This document shows positions 39,844-58,574 of a stretch of DNA of 64,000 nt, in pieces. The DNA comes from Gammaproteobacteria bacterium (lineage in GTDB: Bacteria; Pseudomonadota; Gammaproteobacteria; Steroidobacterales; GCA-2729495). The position numbers and the translations under genes were made by a program. Where the stretch lies: assembly GCA_030426355.1 (NCBI GenBank), contig JAUHYQ010000002.1, forward strand, positions 248,001 through 312,000, read 5' to 3'. The notes beneath the pieces were generated by a model. It saw only the letters and a program-made list of their open reading frames with translations. It was not told the origin of the DNA and ran no database searches. Positions within the stretch are counted from its first letter, which is position 1; every line of letters begins with the position of its first letter.

Positions 39844-40716
39844 CTAAGAAGAGCTCTTAAGGGCGCTGCGAATTTCAGTGTACCGTTCCTCAATATGGGC
39901 GTTCATTGATTTGGCGCCAGCATCATCGAGCGGAAATATATAAAAATCGCTGCGGCGCAAGCCTGCAAGTATAAGCTTTGCCGTCATGTTCGGGTCTTGT
40001 CCCCACGCACTCATTCTGTCTTTTGATATCGAGGTACCGGGTCGCGGGCCACCGAATCTTTTTTGTCGAAAACTTGTTGAGTTCCACGCGTTGGTGTTAA
40101 CGACACCTGGGCAGACCACGCTAACATTGATGCCGTCCGGCGCCAGATCCTTTCGCATCGCATCCGACAGGCCAACGATCGCATGCTTTGTTCCAGCATA
40201 AGCCGATGGCGTAACGGGGCCGATCTTTGGTACGGCCACACCAAATCCCGATGATACGTTGACGATATGAGCGATTTCTGATTCCGTCGCTGCGACCTTT
40301 AGCAGTGGCACAAAATGGCGAACCATGTGGCACATTCCAAATACGTTTACCGAAAAAAGCCACTCCACATCGCTTGCGCTTGTTTCATGCAACCTAGTGA
40401 TCAAGTTAACGCCCGCGACGTTAAAAAGCAGGTTGATCTTCCCAAAGACTTCCTCGATGTGGTTAGCGAGGCCAATTACTTTCGCTTCGCTGGAGATGTC
40501 GCACTCCATCGCAATAGCCTGTGCGCCCAGATCCCGGATTACGTTTGCCACTTCCTCGGCTGGTTGTCGGCGCTGGTCCACAATAACTATGCTTAGCGTG
40601 TTTCTCTCGGAGAGTGGGCTAGCGCTGGCAAGCTCAATCGCGAGACTTCGCGCAATTCCGCTTGCAGCGCCTGTGACCACAATGACGCTGCCTGATATCG
40701 GGTAGTTGCGCGGCAT
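39844..40716 (-). CDS. Short-chain dehydrogenase/reductase (SDR 1 of island)
   Basis: About 290 residues from ATG 40716 (MPRNYPISGSVIVVTG); ATG 40743 is an alternative that would overlap the PPOX gene by eight bases. The cofactor motif is TGAASGIA, the structural motif is LFNVAG, and the active site is IVNVSSGFG with YAGTK (Tyr and Lys). It is an oxidoreductase acting on a hydroxyl or keto group with NAD(P). It is the last gene of the nine-gene operon that begins with tetR at 46793. Confidence 0.88.
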   Translation of the reverse strand: MPRNYPISGSVIVVTGAASGIARSLAIELASASPLSERNTLSIVIVDQRRQPAEEVANVIRDLGAQAIAMECDISSEAKVIGLANHIEEVFGKINLLFNVAGVNLITRLHETSASDVEWLFSVNVFGMCHMVRHFVPLLKVAATESEIAHIVNVSSGFGVAVPKIGPVTPSAYAGTKHAIVGLSDAMRKDLAPDGINVSVVCPGVVNTNAWNSTSFRQKRFGGPRPGTSISKDRMSAWGQDPNMTAKLILAGLRRSDFYIFPLDDAGAKSMNAHIEERYTEIRSALKSSS

Positions 40717-40735
40717 AGAATATGATGCCCGAGGC

Positions 40736-41290
40736 TCAGGCATTTCGGCCAGGGACCACCTGTGTCTCTTGCTGGTCGGCAAGCCAGATCTGGCGAGGGG
40801 CATAGCCGTATTTACGGTTCAGGTGTTCCGTAAAAACAATCCGCTCCGGGTCGATGCGTGCAAGCTGCACTCGCGGGGCTTCGATAAGTGGCCGACCTAC
40901 TTCCGATGATGATGCCTGCCATTTGAATATCTTCATGCCGTGCTGCCAATCTGGCGTGTCTACATCCAGCAGCGTAGCCTTCCCAAATATTTGGCAGCCC
41001 ATCACACAGGCCCAGCCGGCCATGGGATTGGCAATGGCAATTGAAACACGCGGGTCGCGGCGTATGGCCCATATCTTTGGGCTTTTTGGTTGGGGAAGGA
41101 TATACAACTGCAAGCCGTCGATATAGTACTCAACAGGACTGACGATCGGTGAGCCGTCCTTTTTTACGGTTGCCAGATAAGCAATATTTGTTAGGGTTAG
41201 AACGCGTTCAATACGTTTTTCCAGCTCATCACGCGGCATCGCCGCCGTTGGCCAAGGCTCCTGTTCTAACCAAGGGTGTGCGAGACTCAT
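40736..41290 (-). CDS. PPOX-class (pyridoxamine oxidase-fold) flavin protein
   Basis: The protein has 184 residues with the split-barrel FMN/F420-binding fold. Recognisable parts are IAYLATVKKDGSPIVSPVEY, IWAIRRDPRVSIAIANP and the later EAPRVQLARIDPERIVF. Members reduce or oxidise small molecules with FMN or F420, or bind heme. The start overlaps the upstream SDR stop by four bases. Its presence in a catabolic operon suggests a flavin-linked reduction step; a role as a cofactor-binding accessory is also possible. Confidence 0.8.
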   Translation of the reverse strand: MSLAHPWLEQEPWPTAAMPRDELEKRIERVLTLTNIAYLATVKKDGSPIVSPVEYYIDGLQLYILPQPKSPKIWAIRRDPRVSIAIANPMAGWACVMGCQIFGKATLLDVDTPDWQHGMKIFKWQASSSEVGRPLIEAPRVQLARIDPERIVFTEHLNRKYGYAPRQIWLADQQETQVVPGRNA

Positions 41291-42099
41291 TGATTAGCGC
41301 TCCACTTCATGAAGTTAACCATCTGCTTTGTGAATGCGACCGGGTCTTCGGCCGCCAGTTGTGCCACCTTAAGAGTGGGTTCAATGCAGATTTTGACCTC
41401 CTGTTCTCTGGAAACTATGGCATCTGCAACTCGCGCACCACATTCTTCCGGCAGGATCTGCAGTTTGCCTCCCCCATAATCGTTGCGGCCAAATTCCTCA
41501 CCACTCGAAGTTAAAGCATGTTTTGCGATATTGCTGGGAATGCCGGCAATAACAAGTATCGTTACGGCTATGTTGTCTTCGTAGTGCTCGACACGCAGCG
41601 TGTCGTAGAAGCCGTGCAGCGCGTGCTTAGCAGCACAGTATGTTGTACGGAACGGAACAGCATGTTTGCCGGCAACCGATGAGGTCACCATGAAATGACC
41701 TGACTGCTGTTCAATAAACCGGGGGAGCACCAGTTTTGTCAGCGCTATCGGGCCAAAGAAATCAACCTCCATGATCCGGCGGTCGACTTCCAGATCGGTG
41801 TCTTTTGCCAGCGACCGCTGCGAAATACCAGCGTTGTTGATCAGTACATCAAGCTGATCGAATTTCCCCAGTACCTCGTTGGCGGCCGCCTTGCGTTCAT
41901 TTGGGTCGGTAATATCAAACGCTGCGAGGTGGATCAGTCCGGGGCCGTCGGGCATTTTGCCTACAGCGGTTTCCAGTTCATCAGCATCTTTGCCTGACAT
42001 GATGATATTGGCCCCTTCGCGCCGAAAGACTCTGGCCATGCCTTCGCCCACGCCGGATGATGCCCCGGTTACCCAAATGGTTTTTCCCGCTAGCTTCAT
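41287..42099 (-). CDS. Short-chain dehydrogenase/reductase (SDR 2 of island)
   Basis: The product has 270 residues. The cofactor motif is TGASSGVG near the N-terminus, with LINNAG and FMVTSSVAGKHAVPFRTTYC then AAKHA, giving the active-site Ser, Tyr and Lys (YCAAK). The ATG at 42099 has CGGAGAAAAG just upstream, so this gene has its own strong ribosome site. It resembles SDR family 7-like reductases. It overlaps the following PPOX gene by four bases. Confidence 0.92.
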   Translation of the reverse strand: MKLAGKTIWVTGASSGVGEGMARVFRREGANIIMSGKDADELETAVGKMPDGPGLIHLAAFDITDPNERKAAANEVLGKFDQLDVLINNAGISQRSLAKDTDLEVDRRIMEVDFFGPIALTKLVLPRFIEQQSGHFMVTSSVAGKHAVPFRTTYCAAKHALHGFYDTLRVEHYEDNIAVTILVIAGIPSNIAKHALTSSGEEFGRNDYGGGKLQILPEECGARVADAIVSREQEVKICIEPTLKVAQLAAEDPVAFTKQMVNFMKWSANQ

Positions 42100-42160
42100 G
42101 GGTCTTTTCTCCGTTTCTTATGGCTATTTCTGACTTTTTTGGCGCAGGCTGATAATTCTC

Positions 42161-42874
42161 TTACCAGGCGATCGTTCTGCCCGTGTAGTCGCGGTAGCTT
42201 CCGCTATCTGACATCGTCAGTGAATCAATCAAAGGGCGCAGGGAGCTAACACTTTCCTCAATGCCGACGCCGGCATTTCCCCACGCATCCATTCGCGTCT
42301 TAACCGCCCCGGGGCAAAACAGTGCCGCAATGATGTCGCGGTCTCTTAGCTGCTTGGCTATGACGGTAGTGGCTTTATTTAAAGCCGTTTTGCTGGTTCC
42401 GTAAGCAATAGCCGGCAAGCAGCGTTCCACAATGGAGCCCACATTGCTCGTAATGTTGACGATCTTTTTTTGCTCACTTGCAGCCACATTGTCGACCAAA
42501 ACCTCCGCCAGCTTAATTGGCGCAAAGGTATTCGTCTCAATGACCTGTTGCCAGACGCTGTAATCAATTGAACCGAAATGTTGTCTGTGAATATTTTCAG
42601 CAATGGGTACCGGGCCGATAATGCCTGCATTGTTCAACAGCACATCAATCGGGATGTTCTTATATTGATCACCGAGCGCATCGATGGCCGCGTGATCGCA
42701 GATATCCAGTTTCTCAACGGCGATTGCAGGATTCTCCTTAGCCAATGCCTGCAGTTCGTCCGCTTTTTCGGGAGTGCGGCAGCAGGCAATTACTTCCCAG
42801 CCATCCGCTGCGTACTGACGCACAAACTCAAGTCCGATTCCCTGGTTCGCGCCAGTAACTAAAATGATAGACAT
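42161..42874 (-). CDS. Short-chain dehydrogenase/reductase (SDR 3 of island)
   Basis: About 237 residues from ATG 42874 (MSIILVTGANQGIG), with AGGA just upstream; a longer frame from 42928 would overlap the CMD gene and is unlikely. Motifs are TGANQGIG, LLNNAG and a SNVGSI / YGTSK active site. It resembles the carbonyl-reductase/sniffer type of SDR. The C-terminus is short. It is one of four SDRs in the operon, which points to several successive oxidations or reductions of one substrate. Confidence 0.9.
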   Translation of the reverse strand: MSIILVTGANQGIGLEFVRQYAADGWEVIACCRTPEKADELQALAKENPAIAVEKLDICDHAAIDALGDQYKNIPIDVLLNNAGIIGPVPIAENIHRQHFGSIDYSVWQQVIETNTFAPIKLAEVLVDNVAASEQKKIVNITSNVGSIVERCLPAIAYGTSKTALNKATTVIAKQLRDRDIIAALFCPGAVKTRMDAWGNAGVGIEESVSSLRPLIDSLTMSDSGSYRDYTGRTIAW

Positions 42875-42902
42875 ATATATGCTTCCTGTTGGCAATAGTC
42901 GT

Positions 42903-43454: not shown

Positions 43455-43463
43455 ATAATTAAA

Positions 43464-44789
43464 TTACGTCGGTTGTGTGGTTACGGCATCTGTTTTTCGC
43501 AGGCGGAAAAAAAGTATCACTGTGCCAAGAGCGACTGCTGCGTTCATGGTGCTCATCATTAAGAACGTAGCGTCGGGGCCAAAGGCGTCGAATAGCCAGC
43601 CGCCAACAAATGTCAGAACAACTATTCCGAGCGATCCGGCGAAGCCAAACGTACCGAAAACCACGCCTCTACTTTCTACGGGAGCTACCTGACCGACTAA
43701 AGTGCCGGCGCTGATCACCACGCTGGCCTCGCCGGCACCCGCCAGAATCGCCGCCGCTATCATTGCACCCGCAAGAGGGTCGTCGACAAGCGACAGGCTC
43801 ATATAGCCCGCGCTGGCCAGCGTGAACGCAAGTCCAATTGCAATCAGGCGTGGCACCTTATCCAGAATCATGCCCATAAAGAGCGGCCATATCAGTGCCG
43901 CGCCCGACGTGATGCCGAATACCATTCCCGCCCGCGCGATAGCTTCACTCGGCGACATGCCGGCAGCAATTCCGCTTTGCGAGACCCAGAGCGACATAAA
44001 CGCGGTAATAATCACCAGATCGCCTTTTGACGCAAAGGCCGTCACATAGCTCAACGCGATGAGAGGCCGTTCTCGGGCCAGCGTAAGTCCTTTCAGTGCG
44101 AGCCGTGGAAGGCTCATGCGGTTGCCTGATGTTCTTGCACCCGGCCCCTGCAGTCCCCGGTGCATCAATACTGCCATTAGCAGGGCTACCGCGGCGCAGC
44201 CCCAGAAGGTGATCCGCAGGGCGAGCGCTTCATCGAACCCTTGTTCGCCAAGAACCCGGGGTAATTTCGATACCCCGACCGCCATCGTGATTATGCCAAG
44301 CCCATTTATTATGGCTACAATACCTAACCATCGGCCACGAAACTTGTCGTCGATGTATTCGGCCAGACACGTAGAAAGCATCACAGTCGAGACCGTTGCG
44401 CCAAAAGCATAGAGAATACGAAGCGCAACCAACTGATACTCGCTTGTAGCCATCGGGTAGGCAGCGAGTCCCGCTGACAGCATGACCAGACCTGTGACAT
44501 AAACCCGGCGTCGGCCCACGCGGTCCGACCAGGCGCCGATCAATCCGGAGATCGCTATCTGAACAGTTTCTTGTACGGTTATAAGCAAGCCCGATAAAGT
44601 GCCTTGCCGGGCAGTAGGGATACCCAGTACTTCGAAAAGATACGGGTTCATAAAATTAAGGAACGTTACGAGGCCAATGGTCCAGAAGGTGGCAAACAGG
44701 ATTGTTTGGGCATTGCTTCGAGTAACGCCCTCGGCCATGACAAATGGACCAATGTGATCACGGTTTACGAATTGGGCGGACGTTGCCAC
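43464..44789 (-). CDS. MFS transporter (paralog B, catabolic island)
   Basis: The product has 441 residues with twelve membrane helices. The loop motif GAWSDRVGRRRVYVTG follows helix 2 and YVTAFASKGDLVIITAF opens the second half, matching the subfamily of the proteins at 15094 and 59135. The start is GTG at 44789, supported by TGGAG about ten bases upstream; it begins three bases after the previous stop. In the operon it is the likely inner-membrane carrier for the imported compound or its breakdown product. Confidence 0.9.
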   Translation of the reverse strand: MATSAQFVNRDHIGPFVMAEGVTRSNAQTILFATFWTIGLVTFLNFMNPYLFEVLGIPTARQGTLSGLLITVQETVQIAISGLIGAWSDRVGRRRVYVTGLVMLSAGLAAYPMATSEYQLVALRILYAFGATVSTVMLSTCLAEYIDDKFRGRWLGIVAIINGLGIITMAVGVSKLPRVLGEQGFDEALALRITFWGCAAVALLMAVLMHRGLQGPGARTSGNRMSLPRLALKGLTLARERPLIALSYVTAFASKGDLVIITAFMSLWVSQSGIAAGMSPSEAIARAGMVFGITSGAALIWPLFMGMILDKVPRLIAIGLAFTLASAGYMSLSLVDDPLAGAMIAAAILAGAGEASVVISAGTLVGQVAPVESRGVVFGTFGFAGSLGIVVLTFVGGWLFDAFGPDATFLMMSTMNAAVALGTVILFFRLRKTDAVTTQPT

Positions 44790-44792: not shown

Positions 44793-45551
44793 TTACCACT
44801 CCAGAAGTTGAGCATCGCGATAAAATCCGCCACTGGGCCCGGTATTATCAAGCGTTGCGGCCCAGACAATACCTTTGGCGCCCTCGGATACGGTGCGAGC
44901 TCCAAGCTCTTCCATCCTCGGAAATGTGGCTGTAAAGCCCGGGCAGACTGCATTGACTTTAATTCCGGCTTCGTGAAGTTCATCCGAGAACCTTGCCGTA
45001 AGAGCGTTTAGTGCGGCTTTTGCAATGCCGTAGGCCGGTGGTGCCTTCGATTTTCCGGTAAGCCCAAGCAGCGGGTCACTGTGCAAGCCGGCACTGCTGG
45101 AGACATTCACGATGCGCGCGTGACCACTCTTTCGAAGGAGAGGAATGGCTGCCTGAGTTATGCGCCAGGTTCCCAACAGGGTAACCTCTATGATCTGCCG
45201 GGCACCATCAAGGTCAGCAGTTGATGGCGGTGCCATGTTACGACCCGCGCTCCCGGTTGCATTATTAACCAATATATCGAGCTTACCGTGCTGATTGCCT
45301 ATGACCTCGATGATGCTTCTTACGCTCTCTGCGTTTGAAATATCAAGCGCGTGACCGGTTACGTCCAGCCCCTCATCGCGCAGTGTTGATGCCAGTGCCT
45401 CGGCTTTACCGGAGTCTCGTGCGGTCAAAAAAACTGCCATCCCGAGTTGGCCAAGTTGACGACAGACCTCGAATCCAATGCCTTGGGCGCGACTGCAGCC
45501 GGTTACAAGGGCAACACGATGTGCATTACTCAATTCGATTGCTCCCGGCAC
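44793..45551 (-). CDS. Short-chain dehydrogenase/reductase (SDR 4 of island)
   Basis: The protein has 252 residues. Motifs are TGCSRAQGIG for the cofactor, LVNNATG in place of NNAG, and IVNVSSSAGLHS with YGIAK for catalysis. The C-terminal GFTATFPRMEELGARTV is typical of plant-type carbonyl reductases and related SDRs. The start is GTG 45551, which overlaps the NTF2-like gene by 22 bases. It is the third gene of the operon. Confidence 0.9.
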   Translation of the reverse strand: MPGAIELSNAHRVALVTGCSRAQGIGFEVCRQLGQLGMAVFLTARDSGKAEALASTLRDEGLDVTGHALDISNAESVRSIIEVIGNQHGKLDILVNNATGSAGRNMAPPSTADLDGARQIIEVTLLGTWRITQAAIPLLRKSGHARIVNVSSSAGLHSDPLLGLTGKSKAPPAYGIAKAALNALTARFSDELHEAGIKVNAVCPGFTATFPRMEELGARTVSEGAKGIVWAATLDNTGPSGGFYRDAQLLEW

Positions 45552-46099
45552 TTGAAGCGGGGGCAGTTATAGCAATTAGCCTCGCATATATCTGCAATCA
45601 GCTTTCTGAATGCGGGACGAACCTTGTCTTCCTTATCTGCAAATACACTTTTATAGGTTGCCGGATGCGTGCAGGCTTCGATGTAAGTGTTCATTTTCCA
45701 GCCGTCGGGCTTGCGTGTTAAGACCGCGAAACCAGGGTCGGTGCCGCTGGCCGCCGGGCCCATGATTGCCTTTATGTCCCACTCTGCATCGAATGCCACC
45801 ACGGCTATGTTTGGGGCAACCAGTTTCGCGCGTATATTTACAAAGTTGTACCACAGGGCGACGATGAGCTGTTTCTTGCGCTCTGGCGACCAATAGTCGA
45901 TGAGTTCTTCCCAAGTGGTGAAGACATCAACACCTCGCCCATCGGGATGGTTGCTATCTTTTGTTCTTTCCATGGGTCGATAGTAGGGAGCGTCATTGGT
46001 ATCCCACATGTCGATAAGTGACGAGTAGTTGTCCTGATCGTTCCAGCGCGCTGTGTATTCAGCAAAAAACGCTTCCATTTCTCGTTGCAGATCGGTCAT
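45530..46099 (-). CDS. NTF2/SnoaL-like protein with a Cys-rich C-terminus
   Basis: The product has 189 residues. The N-terminal helices and curved sheet (EMEAFFAEYTARWNDQDNYS, then VAFDAEWDIKAIMGPAAS) fit the NTF2/SnoaL cone fold used by many small isomerases, dehydratases and cyclases. The C-terminal end contains CEANCYNCPRFKC, four Cys that could bind metal or form disulfides, which is unusual for the fold. It follows tetR by 55 bases and overlaps SDR 4. The reaction is unknown. Confidence 0.65.
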   Translation of the reverse strand: MTDLQREMEAFFAEYTARWNDQDNYSSLIDMWDTNDAPYYRPMERTKDSNHPDGRGVDVFTTWEELIDYWSPERKKQLIVALWYNFVNIRAKLVAPNIAVVAFDAEWDIKAIMGPAASGTDPGFAVLTRKPDGWKMNTYIEACTHPATYKSVFADKEDKVRPAFRKLIADICEANCYNCPRFKCREQSN

Positions 46100-46154: not shown

Positions 46155-46793
46155 CTAGTTGAGCTTTGCAGATGCAGCGATTTGGGCGTTCAGAGCATCC
46201 CTGAACCATTGCCATAGTTCTCTACTTTTCTCAATGCTTCTCATTTCCCGGTTTTGCGTTGTGAGACCTGTTACAAACACAGCAACCGCGTTTACCGCCA
46301 TCTTCAGCTGATCACGATCAACCTTGGTAACAAAAGAGCGATTCAGGTTCCCGCTCTGCTTATCCATAATACGTTCAAACGAATCCCGCCTTGCTTTAAT
46401 GTAGGTATCGTTAAACATGAGCCTTGGGTAAAGCTCTGAAATAATTCGCAATGATTTGGGGTCTTTGAGCAAACGCTCGAATATCACGTACTCTACCTCG
46501 TCGAGATACTCGTTAAAGGTTGTCGGTCGTCCGGAGCCTAGAACCCCGAATACATTCATGCTCGCCTTTTTGTAGGCCGCCATAACGACATCGGGCATTT
46601 TTGCAAAGTGGTGGTAGAGCCCTCCTTTGCTTAGGCCCGCCCGGTCCGCCAGTGCTGCGGACGTTAGTGCGTCATAGCCACCTTCTGCAATCAGTTCACA
46701 CGCGGCGTCAATGATCAGCGCGCGGGTGCGAGCGGCCGAGATCGTCTGCTTGTTGGGAGTCCGTTCCCGTTCTGTGTTGCTTGATAAATCCAT
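46155..46793 (-). CDS. TetR-family transcriptional regulator
   Basis: The protein has 212 residues. The N-terminal DNA-binding part has RALIIDAACELIAEGGYDAL followed by TSAALADRAGLSKGGLYHHF, a canonical TetR helix-turn-helix. The C-terminal helical domain would bind the inducer. It is the first gene of the minus-strand operon, so it probably regulates itself as well as the divergent plus-strand operon through the palindrome at 46817-46832. No clear ribosome site lies before its ATG. Confidence 0.94.
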   Translation of the reverse strand: MDLSSNTERERTPNKQTISAARTRALIIDAACELIAEGGYDALTSAALADRAGLSKGGLYHHFAKMPDVVMAAYKKASMNVFGVLGSGRPTTFNEYLDEVEYVIFERLLKDPKSLRIISELYPRLMFNDTYIKARRDSFERIMDKQSGNLNRSFVTKVDRDQLKMAVNAVAVFVTGLTTQNREMRSIEKSRELWQWFRDALNAQIAASAKLN

Positions 46794-46811
46794 AAAGTTG
46801 TAAATTCCATA

Positions 46812-46840
46812 TTGCCGACCGACCGGTCGGTCTGTATAAT
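46812..46840 (+). promoter_or_regulatory. Sigma-70 promoter of the MBL operon
   Basis: TTGCCG (46812-46817) and a perfect TATAAT (46835-46840) are separated by 17 bases. Transcription would begin near 46847, about 80 bases before the first MBL gene. The spacer is almost filled by the palindrome described separately. Confidence 0.75.
46817..46832. promoter_or_regulatory. TetR operator, 16-bp perfect palindrome
   Basis: GACCGACCGGTCGGTC is perfectly symmetric and lies between the -35 and -10 boxes of the plus-strand promoter, 24 bases before tetR on the other strand. Sites of the ACCGACCGGTCGGT type are common for TetR-family repressors. Bound repressor would block RNA polymerase directly. Confidence 0.85.
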
Positions 46841-46926
46841 CGCGCTTTCGCCAGGTCGGGTCAAGTGGCTTGTTCCATTCTTTATTTAGCTAACTGAACA
46901 CGGCGATTGCATTAGGGGTATTGAAC

Positions 46927-47880
46927 ATGAGCATTATCAGGTTCCGATGTATCAGCCTTGCGGCGGCGACAATCCTGGCTATTTTGGGAGCCGCACCCGG
47001 CGCGCATGCGGAATCCAGCGGTTTCGTGACGGGGACCGAAAAGATCGGTGAGGGTGTGTATGTCTTCCGCTATGGCATCCATCGCAGTCTGTTTGTGGTG
47101 TCAGAAGAGGGCGTGATCGTTACCGACCCACTAAACGCTGCGGCCGCCAAAATTTATCGGCAAGAGATCGCAAAGATCACCGCCGCCCCTGTCACGCATG
47201 TGATTTATTCGCACTCCCATTGGGATCGGGTTGCCGGCGGTCAAGTCTTCAAGGACGAGGGTGCGCGCTTCATTATGCAGGAAGCTTGCGCGGCAAATCT
47301 GTTGGAGGTTAATGCCCGGACGCCGCTTGCTGTTCCCGATATTGTGCCACCCGACGAGACGTTTTCGGCACGACTGAGTTTAACTTCCGGTGATCAGGGA
47401 ATAGAGCTTTTCGACTTTGGCCCGAGCCATGACAAGTGTCACGCTGTCATGTATCTGCCCGCGCTTAATGCGCTATTCATCCCCGAGCTTATAAGCACTC
47501 TTGGCGCCTCGCTACCCGTGGAAGACATCACGCTTGGGACTTACGAGTTATCCAACATCGTTGCCTATTTCAAGTCAGTAGAGAGTCTGGCTGAAGAGCA
47601 AGGCGTTACAACGCTGATTATCGGTCATGCGCGCGAGTTACTGGTGAACGGCGAATTGCGTCTCGAACCTGCAACCGGGCCAGTTGTATTGCTGAAGGAA
47701 CAGCGCGAATTCTGGGAATTTTCGCTGGGCTATATGGGCGAGCTGGTTGGCAAGGGTGCTCAGTCGATGTTCCTGGCGCGAATCATTCGCTACGAGAAAT
47801 TCGAAAACTATGTCGGTTACGACAAAGAAGCCGTTTTCATGATGTTTAGAAGAATGATCACCTGGTTTGCGACCGGTTAG
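46927..47880 (+). CDS. Exported MBL-fold protein 1 (altered metal site)
   Basis: About 317 residues from ATG 46927 (AGGGGT upstream), with a signal peptide ending near GAHAES. The metallo-beta-lactamase fold is visible from VYVFRYGIHRSLFVVSEEGV onward. The metal motif reads HSHWDR (His96, His98, Asp100, Arg101), so the final His of HxHxDH is replaced by Arg. His168 (FGPSHDK) and His234 (IIGHARE) are kept, while the bridging Asp position appears as Glu187 (FIPELIS). It may hold one metal ion or none. It is the first gene of the operon under the TetR-type promoter. Confidence 0.88.
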   Translation: MSIIRFRCISLAAATILAILGAAPGAHAESSGFVTGTEKIGEGVYVFRYGIHRSLFVVSEEGVIVTDPLNAAAAKIYRQEIAKITAAPVTHVIYSHSHWDRVAGGQVFKDEGARFIMQEACAANLLEVNARTPLAVPDIVPPDETFSARLSLTSGDQGIELFDFGPSHDKCHAVMYLPALNALFIPELISTLGASLPVEDITLGTYELSNIVAYFKSVESLAEEQGVTTLIIGHARELLVNGELRLEPATGPVVLLKEQREFWEFSLGYMGELVGKGAQSMFLARIIRYEKFENYVGYDKEAVFMMFRRMITWFATG

Positions 47881-50774: not shown

Positions 50775-52628
50775 ATGATCAGGCTGAAATTGTTGTTTTC
50801 AAAAATTATTGTCGGTAGCTGGATTGCGTTGTTTTGTATGGCGTTGTTTTCTCCTGCGTATGCGGAAATGACGGAACTGGAAAAGAAAGCCGCATCGACG
50901 CTGCCCTTTTTCCTGAAAATTCCGCCCTATGAAACTGAGAATCTGGGAGATGGGCTGTACTCATTTCGCTGGGGCGCTTATCGCAATATATTTTTGGTCA
51001 CCGATGACGGGGTGATCGTCACTGATCCCATGGGTGTCGATTCTGCCGGTGTTTTCCGTGACGAGATTGCCAAGATTACGGATCAGCCGGTGAAGTACGT
51101 CGTCTATTCGCAATCGCACTGGGATCACGCGACTGGCGCAGGAATCTTTAAAGACGAGGGCGCTAAAATTATTGCGCACGAAAAGTGTGCGGCAAATATA
51201 GCGGAGCGGCCGAACGAGGGGCTGCTGCCTCCCGACATTACTTTTTCTGAAAATTACAGCGTCGAGCTCGGCGGCGAGAGTCTGGATCTCTACTACTTTG
51301 GTCCGGCCGATGACAATTGCGGCATCGTTATCGTGCCGAGTGTGAGGCCGATACTCTATGTCACGGACACCCTGAATCCGGCAACCAGCCAGACCATCCC
51401 CTGGAATCCGCAGGTTCCTGATCTCTACCCCTACAACGTAATCTCGTTTACTAGATCAGTTGAGAAGTTGGGTGCTGAGCGCGGCCTGACGGAATACATT
51501 GGTGGTCATGTGACGTTCATGCAGGGGGCCGACCGGAAGGTGGCGGCCTATCCAAGCGTGGGCCCGTTTGAGCAAATCACGGAAAAGCGCGAACTGTATG
51601 AGCGGCTTTTTGCGGCAGTCGAATCAGAGTGGCGCAAGGGCACGCCGGAAGCCGATATTCCGCAGGCGATAGTTGATCAAGGCCAGTTCCGTGACTTGGA
51701 CCTGTATTCGGACATAAATTTATGGATGTTTACGCGCAAGATCGCTGCGTATTACGCAGGGCAAGCGCCCGAACCACAGCCTTATGACGTAGAAGTCGTT
51801 ATCGAGCCAATAACAGAAGGGCTCTATGCATTTCGGGCGGGCGGTATACGTAGCTTTTTTATGGTCGGTGACGACGGCGTTCTGGTGGTCGATCCTGTTT
51901 CTGCCAATGTGGCAGGCGCACTGCGGGCAAAAATAGCCGCCATTACGGACAAACCCGTATCGCATGTCGTCTACTCGCACTCGCTGAATCAAAGGGCGAT
52001 TGGCGGTCAGATATACAAAGATGAAGGCGCTCGTTTTGTTGCGCACGAAAATTGTGCGGCTAACTTTGCCGATATTCCTCGCAGAGATATTGTGCAACCC
52101 GACGATGTGTTTTCGTCGAACTACAGTGTTTCTCTCGGCAGTCGCAGCCTCGATCTTTACTATCTTGGGCATCACTACGACTGCAGCATTGTAATGATCA
52201 CTCGGCCAGACAATTACCTGTTTGTGGTTGGGACGGTAAGCCCGCCCGAGGTTGCAATACCCGCAGATGCCAGCCTGCTCAATATTGATGTGTACAACCT
52301 GCCCACTTTTCTGAGTGCGCTAGAGAATCTGGCCCGCGAGGAAGGCGTGACAATGATGATCGCTGATCAGGTTGTAACGTTTACGGGGGCCGACGGAAAC
52401 GAAGTTGTCTTCGGCCCGACTGGCTCGGCAGCGGTTATCGGGGGGCAGAAAGAGTTTTGGGAGGATCTGTTCCGCGATGTGCGTAAGGCGCATGAAGACG
52501 GGATCGGCGGCTCAAGGGTGGGCCGTTACATTGATCATGAGCCTTACCAGCATTTGCGGGGGTACGACAAAAATGTCTTTCCCTGGGTCGCGCGTCGCTC
52601 CATGTCCGTCATCTTCACAGGCAAATAA
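50775..52628 (+). CDS. Exported double MBL-domain protein (both sites degenerate)
   Basis: The product has 617 residues with a signal peptide ending near PAYAEM. Two homologous MBL domains are joined (about 50-330 and 340-617). Domain 1 has SQSHWDH (first His replaced by Gln113), FGPADD in place of GPxHD, Asp198 and His245 kept. Domain 2 has SHSLNQR, losing three of four motif ligands, VVGTVS where Asp is expected, and ADQVVTF where His is expected. Domain 2 is almost surely not a hydrolase; domain 1 is doubtful. It may bind ligand or partner proteins. It starts two bases after the VOC gene. Confidence 0.9.
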   Translation: MIRLKLLFSKIIVGSWIALFCMALFSPAYAEMTELEKKAASTLPFFLKIPPYETENLGDGLYSFRWGAYRNIFLVTDDGVIVTDPMGVDSAGVFRDEIAKITDQPVKYVVYSQSHWDHATGAGIFKDEGAKIIAHEKCAANIAERPNEGLLPPDITFSENYSVELGGESLDLYYFGPADDNCGIVIVPSVRPILYVTDTLNPATSQTIPWNPQVPDLYPYNVISFTRSVEKLGAERGLTEYIGGHVTFMQGADRKVAAYPSVGPFEQITEKRELYERLFAAVESEWRKGTPEADIPQAIVDQGQFRDLDLYSDINLWMFTRKIAAYYAGQAPEPQPYDVEVVIEPITEGLYAFRAGGIRSFFMVGDDGVLVVDPVSANVAGALRAKIAAITDKPVSHVVYSHSLNQRAIGGQIYKDEGARFVAHENCAANFADIPRRDIVQPDDVFSSNYSVSLGSRSLDLYYLGHHYDCSIVMITRPDNYLFVVGTVSPPEVAIPADASLLNIDVYNLPTFLSALENLAREEGVTMMIADQVVTFTGADGNEVVFGPTGSAAVIGGQKEFWEDLFRDVRKAHEDGIGGSRVGRYIDHEPYQHLRGYDKNVFPWVARRSMSVIFTGK

Positions 52629-52629: not shown

Positions 52630-54285
52630 ATGGCCATCGCAAAATCGTTTCGGTCACTGGCGGCTTTGGTGTTGTGCGTTCTGGCGTTGACAACAACTGC
52701 TTGTGCAACGGAATACCGGGTTGCAGTGCTCGCAAAGGGCTCGCCGTTGAGAGGCTCGCAGGGCCTCGCATTGGGGCCGGACGGTGCGCTTTATGTCGGC
52801 GCCATATCCGGGCAGACCATTTATAAAGTTGATGTGGCAACCCGCGCAGTCGAGATTGTTGTGGAACCCCCGCTCGGTGGCGCGGACGATCTCGCTGTTG
52901 CTGCTGACGGCACCATTGTCTGGACGGCGATCGGTGACAGCGCGGTGCGTATTCGTCACCCGGATGGTCGCGTAAACGATCTGGCACAGGGGTTGTTGGC
53001 TGTCAACGGTATCAACTTCGGGCCTGATGGCCGGTTGTTTGTCACGCAGTTGTTTCCGCCCAGCAAGCTGTTTGAGATTGATCTTGATGGCATAGAACCG
53101 CCGAAATTCATCATGGAAGTGCCGGGCGGTCTGAACGGTTTTGAAATCGATGACGACTACATCCTTTACGGACCGCTGTCGGACTTTGGTACGGCTGTCC
53201 GTATAGATCTGAATACCAAGCAACAAACCGTCATCGGTAGTGGCATGGTGACGGCTATCTCGGCAAATCTTTTGCCCGATAAAAGCGTCGTTGTCCTGGG
53301 GTACAGCACGGGTAAGGTATTTCGCATTTATCCCGGTAACCCGGAGCCCGAGTTGTTGGTGCAGTTAGAGGGCCCGCTCGACAATCATGCCATTGCCGAG
53401 AGCGGGCTGATTTATGTGTCACGCACCGCTGACGGGGAGATTGTTGAGATCAACCCGGATACCACTGCTGTTCGGGTGGTCATACCGGGCGGCTTTACCG
53501 GGCCTGGCGGCATATCGACTGTTAACGTCGATGGTAAAGAACAACTACTGGTAGCCGATCTCACCGGCAATCGTTTTGTGGATACCAAGAGCGGTGCGGT
53601 AAGCCGTGTGGAAAATTTTCACAGTTTTTTGCCTCGGGCAGCACGCGAATACATGGGCGGCGCTTCGGCGGGTATCACAGGTACTTGGCTCTACAGCACC
53701 AATGCGATGATCAATGCCGTGCACGTCATTGACCTCGAGACCGGCAAACCGGAGCACACCTACAAGAATGTATTCAGCCCTTACGACCTGGCGGTAACGG
53801 CCAGCGGTGAGGTTATCGTGGCTGAATTCGGGTTGGGCCGCCTGTTGCGTCTTTCTCGTACCGCGGAAGGCAAGCACAAGAAATCAGTTTTAGCCAAAGG
53901 CCTGAAGGGGCCTGTGGGCGTTGCGCTGCTGGGCACAACGGACGTTCTCGTAACCGAAACCTATACCGGTGTCTTGTCTCAGGTTTCGCTGGCTGATGGC
54001 ACTGTGACAAGGCTGTTGGAAGGTCTTGAGCAGCCTGAAGGGCTGGCCGTGACGGACGACGGAAAAGTCATCGTGGCGGAAGTGGGGGCTCAGCGATTGA
54101 TTCAATTTGATCCGCAATCCGGAACCACAGAGACGCTGGTTGAGAACTTGCCCATAGGCGCAACGCTTTGGCGAACGCCGGCGCCGGCATTCTTACTTAC
54201 TGATGTCGCTATCGGCAGAAACGGCGACATTTACCTAACGGCCGATCGTACCAACGATGTGCTGAAGATAAGTCGTTCAGACTAG
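52630..54285 (+). CDS. Exported double beta-propeller, SMP-30/NHL-like
   Basis: About 551 residues from ATG 52630, one base after the previous stop. A signal peptide ends around TTACATEY, with a Cys that could be lipidated although the box is not canonical. Repeats of the type GLALGPDGALYVGAISGQTI, LAVTASGEVIVAEFGLGRLL and LAVTDDGKVIVAEVGAQRLI make two consecutive propellers (about 25-310 and 320-551). Such proteins are lactonases, peptide-lactone hydrolases or sugar-acid lactonases. It likely opens or carries an intermediate in the periplasm. Confidence 0.85.
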   Translation: MAIAKSFRSLAALVLCVLALTTTACATEYRVAVLAKGSPLRGSQGLALGPDGALYVGAISGQTIYKVDVATRAVEIVVEPPLGGADDLAVAADGTIVWTAIGDSAVRIRHPDGRVNDLAQGLLAVNGINFGPDGRLFVTQLFPPSKLFEIDLDGIEPPKFIMEVPGGLNGFEIDDDYILYGPLSDFGTAVRIDLNTKQQTVIGSGMVTAISANLLPDKSVVVLGYSTGKVFRIYPGNPEPELLVQLEGPLDNHAIAESGLIYVSRTADGEIVEINPDTTAVRVVIPGGFTGPGGISTVNVDGKEQLLVADLTGNRFVDTKSGAVSRVENFHSFLPRAAREYMGGASAGITGTWLYSTNAMINAVHVIDLETGKPEHTYKNVFSPYDLAVTASGEVIVAEFGLGRLLRLSRTAEGKHKKSVLAKGLKGPVGVALLGTTDVLVTETYTGVLSQVSLADGTVTRLLEGLEQPEGLAVTDDGKVIVAEVGAQRLIQFDPQSGTTETLVENLPIGATLWRTPAPAFLLTDVAIGRNGDIYLTADRTNDVLKISRSD

Positions 54286-54296: not shown

Positions 54297-55307
54297 GTGC
54301 GCATAGATCTGATTTTGGAATCGAATATGTCTCCGGATCGTATTGCCGAGCTGGGCAAGCTGGCCGAGGAAAACGGCATCGGGGCGATATGGGTCTCCGG
54401 CATGCTGGATGGGCGCGATCCATTCGCTGTTTTTACCAAGCTGGCAATGGAAACCGACCGCATCAGGATGGGGCCGATTGCCGTGAGTCCGTTTGAGCTG
54501 CACCCGCTCATGATGGCCAAGTCACTGCTGACTTTGAATGAGTACGCGAACGGTCGCGCTCAGATGGTGATTGGTGGTGGCGGCGGCACGGCTACCGCTA
54601 TGAACATGAAAATGGATCGACGCGTCCGGCGGGTTCGGGAGGCGCTGGAAATTATTGAGCTCGCTGGTGAGACCGGGCAAGTGGACTACGAAGGCGAAAT
54701 ATTTCAGGTACGCAATTACAAAACGCCCTGGGCCAAAAGCCAACCGCCGCGCGTCCACATCGGTGCCAACGGCCCGAAGATGATTGAGATGGCAGCGAAA
54801 TACGCAAAGCAAATGATGCTAAGCGATAAGACCATTCAGCAGGTAGCCGAAGCTAAGCAACGGATTACCGAGACACGCGTGGCCGCCGCGCTGCCGGCAG
54901 AGCCGTTCCGACTGACCAATTTCTGGGCATGGCATGTCAAGCAAGATCGCGACGAGGCTGTTCGGGAAGCCCGCATATGGTTGGCATTGCGTGGCGTCTT
55001 GTTACGGAAGAACCATGTTTATTTTATGAGTCCCGAGGACTGCGACATCGTTGATGAGGCTCGTCCAAGGTTTTTCGAGGCTCTCGCGCGCCGTTCGCCT
55101 GATATTAAGGATGTGCCTGAACGAATTGTCAATTTGCTAATTGACAATCTTACTAGCTGTGCGTCCGTGGACGGGTTGGACAAGGAGATTGATCGCCTCA
55201 AAGCCTTTGAGAAAGCAGGTCAAACTGAAATCGCACTGCGCATCTATGACAAGCCCGAAGAAACCATCCGAATTCTCGGTGAACGTGTAATTCCGGCGTT
55301 TGCTTAG
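54297..55307 (+). CDS. LLM-class (luciferase-like) flavin oxidoreductase
   Basis: The protein has 336 residues beginning with GTG 54297 (AGGAA eight bases upstream). It lacks a signal peptide and is a paralog of the protein at 8469: shared stretches are MGPIAVSPFELHPLMMAKSL and the following NEYANGRAQMVIGGG. It would act in the cytoplasm as an FMN- or F420-dependent monooxygenase or dehydrogenase. It is the first cytoplasmic product in an operon whose six preceding genes are all exported, so it likely acts after import. Confidence 0.9.
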   Translation: MRIDLILESNMSPDRIAELGKLAEENGIGAIWVSGMLDGRDPFAVFTKLAMETDRIRMGPIAVSPFELHPLMMAKSLLTLNEYANGRAQMVIGGGGGTATAMNMKMDRRVRRVREALEIIELAGETGQVDYEGEIFQVRNYKTPWAKSQPPRVHIGANGPKMIEMAAKYAKQMMLSDKTIQQVAEAKQRITETRVAAALPAEPFRLTNFWAWHVKQDRDEAVREARIWLALRGVLLRKNHVYFMSPEDCDIVDEARPRFFEALARRSPDIKDVPERIVNLLIDNLTSCASVDGLDKEIDRLKAFEKAGQTEIALRIYDKPEETIRILGERVIPAFA

Positions 55308-55358
55308 CCGGCCAATATGTGACGAATAAAAAAATTACTAAAGTTAGGGGATAGAACA

Positions 55359-58300
55359 ATGGGGATTGTAAGAATTGTTTTTGGGGCAAGCGCAATTTCT
55401 GCTGCGTTGTCGTTGTTTGCGTCGGCATACGGCCAGACGCTCGATGAAGTGACAGTCACAGCCCGAAAGACGACAGAAAACCTGCAGGAAGTGCCGATTG
55501 CAGTGACTGCTGTGGGCGCCGAGGAGATCGACCGGCTGGGGATCAAAGGCATTGCCGACCTGGCCGGTCAGGACTCCAGTATTCAGTTTGATCAGGGTTT
55601 TTCTGCCTCAGATACGCGCGTAACCATTCGCGGCTTATCGCCCTCGCGAGGGCGTCCCAATGCGGCAACGCTGGTTGATGGCATCGACATTTCCTCGGAA
55701 GCGGTGAACAACCCCGGCGGAACGGTACTCATCGATCCGCGTCTCATCGATGTGGAGCGCATAGAAATTGTTAAAGGACCGCAAAGCGCCCTGTATGGGC
55801 GCAGCGCCTTTGCCGGAGCGATTCAATATATAACTAAAGACCCCGACGATGTTTTTGGCGGGGGTGTGTTTCTTGACTATAACCACGAGGGCGATGCAGA
55901 GATACGCGGCAATGTGAGCATTCCACTCTCCGACACGGTTGGCATGCGCATCAATGGACTGGCATGGAGTGAGGACGGCTACTACAAAAATTCGACGACC
56001 GGCGGCAAGCTTGGCGACGGTAATGGCACCGGCATTTCCCTGACGTTTAAGTGGGAACCCACGGACAGCTTTAGCGCTAAATGGCGTAGCGATTACACTG
56101 ACGATGAAAACGGTCAGGCTGCTCAAGCTGGTTTGAATGACCGAAACACCCTTTATGATCTTGGTACCAGTGGTGGTATCGGCGGTGTCGACTCGGAAGG
56201 TCGTTCCGTAAGCAATCTGGTGCCAATCAGTAATGCATGTAACGTCATGCCTGGGCCACTCGGCAGCTATGATTGCGGGCCTGGCCAGGCGCTGGATCAA
56301 TACCTGCGCGATGTGCCGGGTGCCGGACCGAGCTCTTCATTTATCTACGGTGCATTCGGCAATACCTATCCCGATGGTTTCGGTCTTTACGATGTCACTG
56401 ACCCGTATATTCGCAATATCTACAACCAGCAGTTTGTCAGCATCTTTACCGGCGCCATACCGGACGGCGATGAACTGCAGGCTCGCCTGATGCCTGATTA
56501 CCGGAAAAGCAACGACCCACGCAACGCGGTGGATTTTAAGGGCAGCACCCGTCAGGTTTTCCGCAACTCTCTGGTCATGCAGTGGGAGATAAGTGATGCC
56601 CTGCTGGCCAGCTCATACACGGGCTATACCGATGCCAAAGTGACATCTGAGCAGGATTCCGGCAAATACTATGTGGATGAGTGCCGACCGGGTGCTGACC
56701 AGCTGGGCAAGATCCCCGAACTGCAACAACAGAATGACTGCACCGGCGGTGATGGAATCCACGACGGTGGCACCGTGTTGGCTCAGGACAATCGGAATGA
56801 GACCACACAACTCAGCCAGGAGTTTCGTCTGGCATGGGATATTAACGACAGCGTCAAGCTAACCCAAGGGCTGCAGTACTGGCGTGAACGGGTAACGCAA
56901 CTGCAATTGACGCAAACTACGGTTACTGGAGATGCGTTCTGTTTTCTGAATTCTACCAACCCGGCATTGGGCACCCCCTATGATTTTGCTTTCGGGCCAT
57001 TGGGGCCAAATTTCCAGTGTGGCCTGACAACGGTTCCTGCGGCTTACTTTGCGAGCAAGACATTCGCGGCTTTTGGCGATCCGGTGGAACAACATCGCTC
57101 GACCGATCACTATTCGTGGTATGGCAACTTGCAGTGGAATATCACAGACAAGTTTCGAACCACGTTGGAGGCCCGCTTTACCCGCGAAGACAACTCGGTA
57201 AGCGGGCCAGCCATGCATCCCTGTGTAAATGGCTTGTCTCAGGATTATCTCGATAATCCTGATGATCCGGATTCCGGGTTTGTTTCACCTTTCCGCGATG
57301 CCTATACCGGTTTCGCGCTGTGCCAAAACTATCTGACCAACCCATTTGATGGGGGCGCTTTCTGGAACTCGCCGGGTGAAACCAACCTGCCAGCGGTAGG
57401 CGCTATCGTCCTTGACCCGAATTCGCCCAGTTGGACCGGTGGGCCCATGAGCGGCCGCATTGACAGCCCGAGCTCGTCGGTTATTTGTGGCTTCAACGGA
57501 CGCTGCGACCGACTTGAGTTCGCGCCCGGAGGATCGCCGGGCAATCCTGGTTCTTTCAATGTATTCGGCTATGGCCTGGCTAACAGCACACAACAAACTC
57601 TCAGCAATAGGCAAAATTACTGGGCCCCGAAGGCCACGTTTGAGTATTTCTGGAACGATGACGTCATGACGTACTTCTCATGGTCACGTGGCATAAAGCC
57701 CGGCGGCTTCAGCTTGCTCTCCGTTGCTGCTTTTGGCTTGGATGCCAATGGGGACGGCCGCTACGATGAAGTCAGTTTTGACTCTGAGCGTCTTGACGTT
57801 TGGGAATTCGGCGCCAAGACCACGCTTATGGACGGTCGTCTGCGACTAAACGGCGCAGTTTTCTATCAGGACTTCAAAGATAAGCAAGTGAATGTTCGCG
57901 AAGTTGTTGGGAACACCACCGGTCCGCGTATCAGAAATATCGATGGCTCTGAGGTCAAAGGTCTGGAACTGGATGTCAGCTTCCAGGCTACAGATAATTT
58001 GCGTCTTTCCGGCGGCTACACTTATCTGAAGAGCAAGTTCACCGACTATCGGATACTGTCCCAAAGCGCGGCCGATATAGCCAGGGTTGAATTGGGCCCG
58101 GGCAATGGTTGTGACGGCTTGTTTACTGCACCAGATGGAGATGTTTTCTGCTGGCTGAACTACAACGGCAATGAACTCGAGCGTGTGCCACGGCATGCTT
58201 TCTTACTCGACATCAACTACACCAACAACTTGTTCGATACCGGTATGGAATGGTTTGGTCTGGTTAATTTCCGCTATCAGGATTCACGCTGGCTCGAATC

Positions 58301-58574
58301 ATTTAACGTGGTCGAATTGCCGGCATACACCCGGACCAACGTCAGCGCCGGTGTTCTTGCCGATAGCTGGGATTTGCAGTTCTATATCGACAACATATTC
58401 GACGATGACACGGTGACGTCGGCAGCGGGGTTACCGGGGTTCGCCACGAGTCAGTGGCGTTTTGGCATAGCGGATGGTTCTGTCATTGGTCCTGTGGTGC
58501 CAGCCTCTTCGGCTGCGTACTTGCCGAATCCCCGAATAATCGGTGCGCGCTTCAACTGGCGGTTTGGTGGCTAG
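55359..58574 (+). CDS. TonB-dependent outer-membrane receptor, large
   Basis: The product has 1071 residues; AGGGGA precedes ATG 55359. A signal peptide ends near AYGQTL. LDEVTVTARKTTENLQEVPI is the TonB-box and plug start, VERIEIVKGPQSALYGRSAF is the conserved plug motif, and the barrel ends IIGARFNWRFGG. It is about 300 residues longer than the other two receptors here, with Cys-containing extracellular loops (YDCGPGQALDQYL, VDECRPGADQLG). It closes the plus-strand operon and would be the uptake gate for the substrate processed by the exported enzymes. Confidence 0.96.
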   Translation: MGIVRIVFGASAISAALSLFASAYGQTLDEVTVTARKTTENLQEVPIAVTAVGAEEIDRLGIKGIADLAGQDSSIQFDQGFSASDTRVTIRGLSPSRGRPNAATLVDGIDISSEAVNNPGGTVLIDPRLIDVERIEIVKGPQSALYGRSAFAGAIQYITKDPDDVFGGGVFLDYNHEGDAEIRGNVSIPLSDTVGMRINGLAWSEDGYYKNSTTGGKLGDGNGTGISLTFKWEPTDSFSAKWRSDYTDDENGQAAQAGLNDRNTLYDLGTSGGIGGVDSEGRSVSNLVPISNACNVMPGPLGSYDCGPGQALDQYLRDVPGAGPSSSFIYGAFGNTYPDGFGLYDVTDPYIRNIYNQQFVSIFTGAIPDGDELQARLMPDYRKSNDPRNAVDFKGSTRQVFRNSLVMQWEISDALLASSYTGYTDAKVTSEQDSGKYYVDECRPGADQLGKIPELQQQNDCTGGDGIHDGGTVLAQDNRNETTQLSQEFRLAWDINDSVKLTQGLQYWRERVTQLQLTQTTVTGDAFCFLNSTNPALGTPYDFAFGPLGPNFQCGLTTVPAAYFASKTFAAFGDPVEQHRSTDHYSWYGNLQWNITDKFRTTLEARFTREDNSVSGPAMHPCVNGLSQDYLDNPDDPDSGFVSPFRDAYTGFALCQNYLTNPFDGGAFWNSPGETNLPAVGAIVLDPNSPSWTGGPMSGRIDSPSSSVICGFNGRCDRLEFAPGGSPGNPGSFNVFGYGLANSTQQTLSNRQNYWAPKATFEYFWNDDVMTYFSWSRGIKPGGFSLLSVAAFGLDANGDGRYDEVSFDSERLDVWEFGAKTTLMDGRLRLNGAVFYQDFKDKQVNVREVVGNTTGPRIRNIDGSEVKGLELDVSFQATDNLRLSGGYTYLKSKFTDYRILSQSAADIARVELGPGNGCDGLFTAPDGDVFCWLNYNGNELERVPRHAFLLDINYTNNLFDTGMEWFGLVNFRYQDSRWLESFNVVELPAYTRTNVSAGVLADSWDLQFYIDNIFDDDTVTSAAGLPGFATSQWRFGIADGSVIGPVVPASSAAYLPNPRIIGARFNWRFGG

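Follow-up and report, generated by a model that had tools for sequence, protein, structure and literature searches.

A Predicted Mosaic Gene Island with an Apparent TetR Control Node, an Ordered Pair of Metallo-beta-lactamase-Fold Proteins, and a Putative F420-Type Oxidoreductase

What joins nine genes on one strand of a gammaproteobacterial genome to eight genes on the other, when both sets start from the same short control region? The question arises from the window analyzed here, a stretch of 64,000 nucleotides (G000:C5:248001-312000) from host genome G000, which comprises 2.82 Mb in 11 contigs and is 99.7% complete. An earlier reading made from the letters of the DNA (the sequence-only reading) had proposed that window positions 39844-58574 encode a divergent TetR-controlled catabolic regulon with a periplasmic enzyme set. 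Our findings indicate that this island is probably a mosaic whose modules occur apart from one another in relatives and have apparently been brought together under one TetR control node. The part of the island most worth testing is a couple of metallo-beta-lactamase (MBL)-fold proteins, one degenerate and one intact.

Results

Two gene sets diverge from one control region

Nine minus-strand genes and eight plus-strand genes diverge from a single 133-bp gap, as judged from open reading frames (ORFs) and Pfam matches in the window. This agrees with the inventory given by the sequence-only reading, including the MFS carrier in the minus-strand operon (MFS_1) and the 1071-residue TonB receptor, with Plug and barrel Pfam domains, at the end of the plus-strand operon. 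The tight spacing described for the plus strand was likewise found, with gaps of 10, 25, 25, 2, 1, 11, and 51 nt when likely starts are used. Starts in the raw ORF list lie too early for MBL1, MBL2, the amidohydrolase, the VOC protein, and the propeller; the starts chosen for the amidohydrolase and propeller show no obvious ribosome-binding motif by a simple test. The genes are as follows.

39844-40743, minus strand: SDR1, short-chain dehydrogenase (SDR; adh_short 4e-40); ORF open from 40803, start uncertain
40736-41290, minus strand: PPOX, split-barrel oxidoreductase, F420- or flavin-dependent (PNPOx_N 7e-14; nearest solved relative Rv1155)
41287-42099, minus strand: SDR2, short-chain dehydrogenase (adh_short 6e-43; 61-69% homologues in relatives)
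42161-42874, minus strand: SDR3, short-chain dehydrogenase (adh_short 3e-35); start placed at a likely start codon
42903-43454, minus strand: CMD-family (AhpD-like) protein (PF02627 5e-11)
43464-44789, minus strand: MFS1 transporter (MFS_1 8e-38; 56-63% homologues in G016 and genomes of family f13)
44793-45551, minus strand: SDR4, short-chain dehydrogenase (adh_short 2e-40), conserved adjoining the NTF2-fold gene
45530-46099, minus strand: NTF2-fold protein, 189 aa (AlphaFold model and Foldseek)
46155-46793, minus strand: TetR-family regulator (TetR_N 4e-15; homologues of 62% and 54% in G016)
46927-47880, plus strand: MBL1, export-type N-terminus, altered metal site HHDRHEH (MBL profile and ligand alignment)
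47891-48913, plus strand: MBL2, export-type N-terminus, all seven ligands HHDHHDH (MBL profile and ligand alignment)
48939-50171, plus strand: amidohydrolase, amidase/prolidase-like, lipoprotein-like N-terminus (Amidohydro_1 3e-23)
50197-50772, plus strand: VOC-fold protein, apparently exported (glyoxalase/dioxygenase superfamily 1.5e-11)
50775-52628, plus strand: fused double MBL, apparently exported; N-terminal half QHDHDDH, C-terminal half HLQRHGQ
52630-54285, plus strand: two-lobed beta-propeller, apparently exported, possibly a lipoprotein (SGL, NHL, and Strictosidine synthase matches)
54297-55307, plus strand: LLM, putative F420-type luciferase-like oxidoreductase (Bac_luciferase PF00296 2e-41)
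55359-58574, plus strand: TonB-dependent outer-membrane receptor, 1071 aa (Plug 4e-19, barrel 1e-29)

The gap that separates the two sets holds these elements.

46794-46926: shared divergent control region, between the tetR start at 46793 and the likely MBL1 start at 46927
46812-46840, plus strand: sigma-70-like promoter TTGCCG-17-TATAAT, MBL operon (consensus match only, 10/12)
46836-46864, minus strand: sigma-70-like promoter TTGACC-17-GATTAT, toward tetR (consensus match only, 9/12)
46817-46832: perfect 16-bp palindrome GACCGACC·GGTCGGTC, predicted TetR operator

Two promoter-like sites were found in the control region, compared with 0.3 in shuffled sequences. The palindrome, sought within 3 mismatches, occurs once in the window against 0.14 expected, and it is the sole exact copy in the 2.8-Mb genome. 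On the plus strand it falls in the 17-nt spacer of the promoter-like site, except that its first base also belongs to the -35 word. Relative to the minus-strand site it is adjacent without overlap, lying past the -10 word by 3 nt, approximately where transcription of tetR would start. Upstream of the two tetR orthologues in G016 (62% and 54%) are palindromes with one mismatch each (AACCGAAC·GTTCGGTC and GACCGGGC·GCCCGGTT), and all three sites match NACCGNNC·GNNCGGTN. Two further palindromes came up in the same scan, an unrelated one in the window stretch and another in locus L186.

A divergent promoter that holds the palindromic operator of a TetR repressor is a known layout. The island resembles it in having a TetR_N domain and a palindrome that lies within one promoter-like site and adjoins the other, the signs of a TetR-family repressor that can be read from sequence, and it departs from it in that the divergent partner varies between orthologous copies. 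The shared control region put forward by the sequence-only reading is borne out, and a single TetR control node apparently serves both operons, presumably through binding of TetR to the palindrome. Since the palindrome occupies the spacer between the promoter-like words ahead of the MBL operon, such binding would control that operon. The site is exact enough for use in a binding assay, which could offer a lead to the substrate. A sole other copy with one mismatch occurs in the genome (L256, G000:C4:428009-428024), with an MFS1-like gene nearby.

A degenerate MBL precedes an intact MBL

To compare metal sites, an alignment with MBL2 as its anchor was used to locate seven ligands (His123, His125, Asp127, His128, His189, Asp208, and His255). 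MBL2 carries the motif of MBL-fold metallohydrolases (HxHxDH followed by His, Asp, and His) and is the only one of the four MBL domains in the window with the full set; the other three, those of MBL1 and of each half of the fused protein, are altered. The MBL genes named in the sequence-only reading are confirmed as genes, but an intact metal site is present in MBL2 only.

A profile search over all fetched loci yielded 17 distinct tandem MBL pairs outside the window, 16 of them in 15 genomes and one in an alphaproteobacterial metagenome-assembled genome (MAG; L124). Every upstream gene (17/17) has Arg in place of His at ligand 4, and every downstream gene has all seven ligands. At least two ligands are changed in 14 of the 17 upstream members, and Arg is the sole change in three. 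Close pairs (G036/G014, G017/G022, and G011/G018) were each counted separately, and degenerate copies at contig ends with no readable full partner (L047, L048, and L026) were left out of the count; the L026 copy, NFDHYKF, is an exception to the Arg rule. Among unpaired MBL copies in relatives or elsewhere in the host genome, 21 distinct copies have all seven ligands and 2 more are truncated. MBL1 and MBL2 of the window follow the usual degenerate-then-intact order. The fused double MBL has the reversed order with both sites altered, an arrangement unseen in the other loci profiled.

Degenerate copies, including MBL1 and the C-terminal half of the double MBL, fall on one side of a branch with support of 99/98, or 99/97 when the metal columns are masked; MBL1 and both double-MBL halves have long branches in this tree. 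Pairwise identities within one set of partners track those within the other (Mantel r 0.92 for 13 pairs and 0.89 for 15 pairs, p 1e-4), where the 13 are drawn from the 17 by omission of L059, L060, L062, and L070, and the test was run with and without the two window pairs. These results suggest a single origin and inheritance of the partners together. Both partners carry Cys148 and Cys192 in all 14 pairs read. When partner homologues were sought across the class at E 1e-30, 11 of 369 genomes matched, the host included. The 11 class-level places outside the host genome read HHDHHDH in 10 cases and HHAHNDH in one, and none of the 11 has Cys148/Cys192 or Arg at ligand 4. In this sample and at this threshold no instance of the couple turned up beyond the order; the alphaproteobacterial MAG noted above does have it.

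B1 MBLs carry Cys at the position of MBL2 Asp208. The AlphaFold model of MBL2 (predicted local distance difference test score, pLDDT, 87.4) has C-terminal helices, and its nearest fold is 8d2z, followed by B1 MBLs, with TM-scores on the query of only 0.49-0.57. MBL2 is like these proteins in its fold and HxHxDH motif, and it differs from the B1 enzymes in having Asp208, the C-terminal helices, Cys148/Cys192, and a degenerate partner. It also misses the NCBIfam lactamase cutoffs for the core model (50.8 versus 100 bits), B1 (40.7 versus 200), B2 (23.1 versus 240), and B3 (27.4 versus 240), and a true beta-lactamase was rejected on these scores. Assignment to the quinoprotein relay metallohydrolases (TIGR04558/TIGR04559) was rejected in the same manner, given TIGR04559 scores of 54.9 for MBL2 and 91.5 for the double MBL against a cutoff of 280. 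A plasmid-borne cluster found no support: among 60 plasmid records matched by MBL2, none covers 80% of the query and all are below 60% identity. A defense system was also discarded, because a PADLOC scan of three proteins gave no match for MBL2 or the double MBL and one weak match (17.1 bits) for the propeller.

Pairing or fusion of a catalytic MBL copy with an inactive copy is known from CPSF-73/CPSF-100 and from long tRNase Z, although for the latter this was not confirmed in a paper passage. The likeness lies in the principle of a catalytic plus a degenerate copy; those are nucleic-acid enzymes, whereas the couple described here appears to be exported and sits in catabolic-type operons. A bolder proposal, which we hold only tentatively, is that these proteins form a new exported MBL class that acts as an obligate couple at the periplasmic entry step of an F420-dependent catabolism, in an uncultured gammaproteobacterial lineage and at least one alphaproteobacterium. 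The degenerate subunit would then serve as a substrate receptor or scaffold and would be encoded immediately upstream of the catalytic one, except where the two are fused in reversed order, as happens in the window. With its strict order, the pair makes a simple and falsifiable case in which a partner inherited together with an enzyme may itself be a pseudoenzyme.

LLM resembles F420-dependent enzymes

The sequence-only reading had described LLM as a luciferase-like flavin enzyme. Its nearest solved relatives are instead F420-dependent Mer proteins (3e-23, near full length), with methanesulfonate sulfonatase, of the sulfonate monooxygenase type, far behind (5.5e-8). The latter we take to be a flavin mononucleotide (FMN) enzyme. 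LLM is thus nearest to F420-type rather than plain flavin enzymes, and the earlier description is revised to this extent.

Judged from its genes, the host probably makes F420. Its CofD scores 290.1 bits against a cutoff of 257.45, and the ORFs in a row with CofD resemble, on inspection by eye, Fno, CofE, CofC, and FbiC. Across 147 relatives, CofD was matched in 59 and exceeded the cutoff in 55, and the LLM family (E <=1e-40) is present in 53. CofD was matched in 47 of these 53 genomes compared with 12 of the 94 others (Fisher 1.7e-20, with kinship not removed). These counts use CofD at E 0.001, a threshold at which four genomes lie below the curated cutoff (G012, G033, G123, and G126) and at which the CofD control also matches in E. 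coli, T. maritima, and L. lactis. An LLM gene lies <6 kb from CofD in at least nine genomes (G001, G009, G010, G011, G014, G016, G018, G030, and G036), and in an alphaproteobacterial MAG (L126) the VOC and LLM genes are followed by an Fno-CofE fusion, CofD, and CofC.

PPOX resembles F420-dependent members of its family but scores below their cutoff. It occurs in 50 of the 147 genomes, distributed over families much as LLM is, and it may have been duplicated recently into the island from a widely kept gene, as the data suggest. A second PPOX gene of the host (G000:C3:33249-33797) is 86% identical to the window copy.

We know of few roles assigned to F420 in proteobacteria. The island ties a putative F420-type enzyme to TonB uptake and apparently exported hydrolases in a gammaproteobacterial lineage, and it offers concrete genes to test. 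The distribution of F420 genes in proteobacteria is variable according to the part of a review consulted here (PMC8498797).

Three observations concern other LLM or F420 loci. A second island of the host (L209, G000:C7:433000-452900) holds a 72% LLM paralogue, a TonB-receptor match, a multicopper oxidase, a Rieske oxygenase, and a 57% SDR3 homologue. A multicopper oxidase gene adjoins an LLM gene in G001 (L223). Near the F420 synthesis genes of the host is a 2027-aa ORF (L195:708-6791, G000:C4) that is, by eye, like a nonribosomal peptide synthetase.

Relatives carry the modules separately

Gene maps were made by tblastn for 17 chosen loci, and the contexts given below cover fetched loci. NTF2-fold homologues of 74-83% identity are present in G016 and five f13 genomes. 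At L185, G016 keeps TetR-NTF2-SDR4-MFS1-SDR2 at 62-81%, the contig ending within SDR2. On the far side of tetR, SDR1 (66%) stands at the place of the MBL operon of the window. A 31-residue CMD match (L185:209-301) lies between MFS1 and SDR2 of this locus; the arrangement hints that CMD and SDR3 have been lost there. The second G016 copy, L186, has SDR4-NTF2 facing TetR-LLM, followed by a Rieske-SDR ORF. In the five f13 genomes NTF2-SDR4-MFS1 is preserved, and TonB-receptor matches lie close by; one of these loci (L193) includes a flavin adenine dinucleotide (FAD) monooxygenase and a Rieske oxygenase by Pfam, and some of the other loci have ORFs that look similar by eye. None of the L185-L194 stretches contains an MBL-profile match.

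The plus-strand genes recur in other combinations. The amidohydrolase was found in 2 of 147 genomes (E 1e-50) and the propeller in 17 of 396 genomes of the order (E 1e-40), the host being included in both counts. The VOC gene adjoins an MBL pair in seven loci outside the window (L055, L056, L059, L060, L062, L063, and L124), one of which, L124, also has a 35-36% TonB-receptor homologue beside the pair; at L042, LLM and propeller genes lie alongside an MBL pair. Of 31 loci collected by VOC matches, four have an MBL pair (L124, L125, L127, and L128), two have VOC at a contig end with no MBL on the readable side (L126 and L130), and the other 25, whose VOC matches are weaker or partial, gave no MBL-profile match.

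Because plus- and minus-strand genes recur in separate combinations, the island appears to be a mosaic. Co-conservation of the two operons, which the sequence-only reading had named as its own check, is mostly contradicted in the fetched loci, both by the rarity of the amidohydrolase and by a core in G016 and f13 with no MBL operon nearby. One conserved regulon was consequently rejected as a general statement, given that the contexts of NTF2, propeller, LLM, VOC, and MBL homologues form separate modules.

Export signals and remaining protein assignments

The first six plus-strand genes encode hydrophobic N-terminal stretches with 12-residue means of 2.0-2.9, in keeping with the six successive exported proteins expected from the sequence-only reading. 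However, the measure is not specific, because SDR1 (2.06) and MFS1 (2.12) reach similar values from some starts, and export was judged mainly by eye from the N-termini. With this proviso, the six proteins are apparently exported. The amidohydrolase N-terminus has a lipobox-like ASGC by eye. No signal peptide was seen by eye in LLM, which is taken as cytoplasmic from this N-terminus.

The NTF2-fold protein has no Pfam or NCBIfam match. Its AlphaFold model (pLDDT 81.5) gave Foldseek matches across the NTF2-like fold, the best of which (E ~1e-5) are mixed: scytalone-dehydratase-like proteins, bile-acid 7-alpha-dehydratase, CaMKII hub domains, and beta subunits of ring-hydroxylating dioxygenases. 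Because of this mixture, a dehydratase or isomerase is only a guess. The nearest solved structures for the amidohydrolase are amidohydrolases, amide hydrolases, and prolidases. For the VOC protein, no solved relative was found by sequence; it could in principle be a ring-cleavage enzyme, as its superfamily includes dioxygenases. The propeller barely passes the cutoff of the ScyD/ScyE family NF033206 (83.2 versus 80 bits), and we do not take this label as a probable function. No other scytonemin label appears among the Pfam and NCBIfam matches listed for the cluster, and no genome search was aimed at scytonemin genes.

Discussion

A possible catabolic function

We lean, by a little, toward an inducible catabolic island whose modules were assembled around a TetR switch and that combines the MBL couple with F420-dependent reduction. 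TetR on the palindrome would repress both operons until the substrate or a product releases it. A compound that is probably hydrophobic and bears an amide, ester, or lactone would enter through the TonB receptor and be cleaved in the periplasm by the amidohydrolase and the MBL couple, with MBL2 as the catalytic member and MBL1 as its degenerate partner. The fused double MBL would be a second version of the couple, possibly structural or one-metal, and the VOC and propeller proteins might assist cleavage. Fragments would be imported by MFS1, after which all four SDRs and the NTF2-fold protein would act on them and LLM, perhaps together with PPOX, would reduce them with F420H2. Every step beyond gene identification, including uptake, periplasmic hydrolysis, and oxidation, is our inference. 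From the divergent TetR-controlled catabolic regulon of the sequence-only reading, this proposal retains the control node, the export-type set, the receptor, and the MFS carrier, but neither a single conserved regulon nor a plain flavin LLM.

A number of findings weigh against the proposal. Both operons together were seen in the host genome only, such that a joint function is argued from a single genome and from how the promoters are laid out. At up to 2 mismatches from the palindrome there are four sites genome-wide and also four for the reversed control, and a wider operator regulon was therefore rejected. The best NCBIfam models for LLM are of the Mer/F420 kind, but LLM reaches 132 and 107.9 bits against their cutoffs of 276 and 348.7, and PPOX scores 48.2 bits against a cutoff of 79.05 for the F420 family TIGR03618 (Rv1155-like). 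All 40 genomes of family f1 have LLM, including six with no CofD match, and shared ancestry explains most of the link between LLM and CofD. With five of its seven ligands intact, MBL1 could still bind one metal; one-metal activity is possible for the Arg copies as well, and three of the 17 upstream members differ by Arg alone. Cys148/Cys192 are not markers of the couple, because unpaired copies in the order also have them, with a single exception among those read. No gene for coenzyme A (CoA) activation or beta-oxidation was recognized in the island, and for this reason a full catabolic route is not visible.

Alternative explanations

Much of the same evidence can be read as detoxification rather than growth, in which TetR senses a toxin such as a natural product or antibiotic, exported hydrolases destroy it in the periplasm, F420H2-dependent enzymes reduce it in the cytoplasm, and MFS1 is an exporter. 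This main rival fits almost as well, though we judge it unlikely. TetR with an MFS gene is a usual efflux layout, drug-efflux families are among the NCBIfam matches of MFS1 (all below cutoff), and no CoA genes were recognized in the island. A role for F420 in xenobiotic biodegradation and antibiotic chemistry, as described in the part of the review at hand (PMC8498797), also suits it. Uptake is favored, however, by the 1071-aa TonB receptor in the same operon; the MFS1 homologues of f13 lie with NTF2-SDR4 near TonB receptors, the Rieske and FAD-monooxygenase genes of L193 indicate a catabolic setting, and four SDRs plus an NTF2-fold protein seem excessive for the removal of a toxin.

It is less probable again that there is no joint pathway and that an MBL operon was inserted beside an older TetR-SDR-MFS unit, with promoter sharing by chance. 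The swapped divergent partners in the two G016 copies, the f13 core with no MBL operon nearby, and the scarcity of the amidohydrolase are all consistent with such an event. The palindrome, however, lies within the promoter-like spacer of the MBL operon, and the swapped partners, SDR1 and LLM, are homologues of island genes, as would be expected if one chemistry were involved. We regard as very improbable a secondary-metabolite or siderophore-type system in which exported enzymes modify a product of the cell and the receptor re-imports it. The receptor does score against siderophore-receptor families and the propeller exceeds the ScyD/ScyE cutoff, but the receptor score (147.3) falls short of the family cutoff (223.5), no assembly-line enzyme is among the Pfam matches of the island, and its genes encode mostly hydrolases and dehydrogenases.

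Relation to known systems

The sequence-only reading knew of no described pathway with this gene set, and our literature search, which left subscription literature mostly outside its scope and is no proof of absence in print, likewise found no paper on it. A close parallel is SAR202 (Chloroflexota), for which expansions of luciferase-like proteins (FMN/F420 monooxygenases), SDRs, and Rieske ring-hydroxylating oxygenases have been proposed to oxidize recalcitrant organic matter, and for which an F420-dependent methanopterin-reductase-type group is named (PMC5395668 and PMC6946804, as far as the sections consulted extend). The host resembles SAR202 in its many luciferase-like paralogues (11 LLM-family matches) and SDRs. 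It differs in that those sections stress oxygen-inserting enzymes, whereas LLM is nearest to F420-dependent reductases. The term "metallo" is absent from the PMC6946804 text consulted; PMC5395668 was not searched for MBL, and neither paper for TonB or TetR. With the F420 luciferase-like enzymes Mer and FGD, as covered in portions of PMC6279831 and PMC8498797, the island shares a common fold, near full-length similarity to Mer, and F420 genes in the host. The differences are that LLM falls below the Mer equivalog cutoffs, is encoded in a TonB/MBL operon, and has nothing pointing to a methanopterin substrate.

Neighboring features of the window

Just past the TonB receptor, on the opposite strand, is a second transporter gene of uncertain island membership.

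59135-60457, minus strand: MFS2, same type as MFS1 (MFS_1 7e-32)

Its best model, MamH, is also that of MFS1, and homologues recur in several loci of relatives. Flanking the island at its other end (34804-39768) is a MarR gene that is divergent to an operon encoding a TonB receptor and two alpha/beta hydrolases, after which comes a gene for a heme peroxidase (32404-34665). The MarR stretch is likely a second uptake-and-hydrolysis unit beside the island. Farther out on the plus strand (25543-32305) are, in a row, genes for a pyrroloquinoline quinone (PQQ)-propeller protein, an 876-aa DUF11 protein, and a prolyl oligopeptidase.

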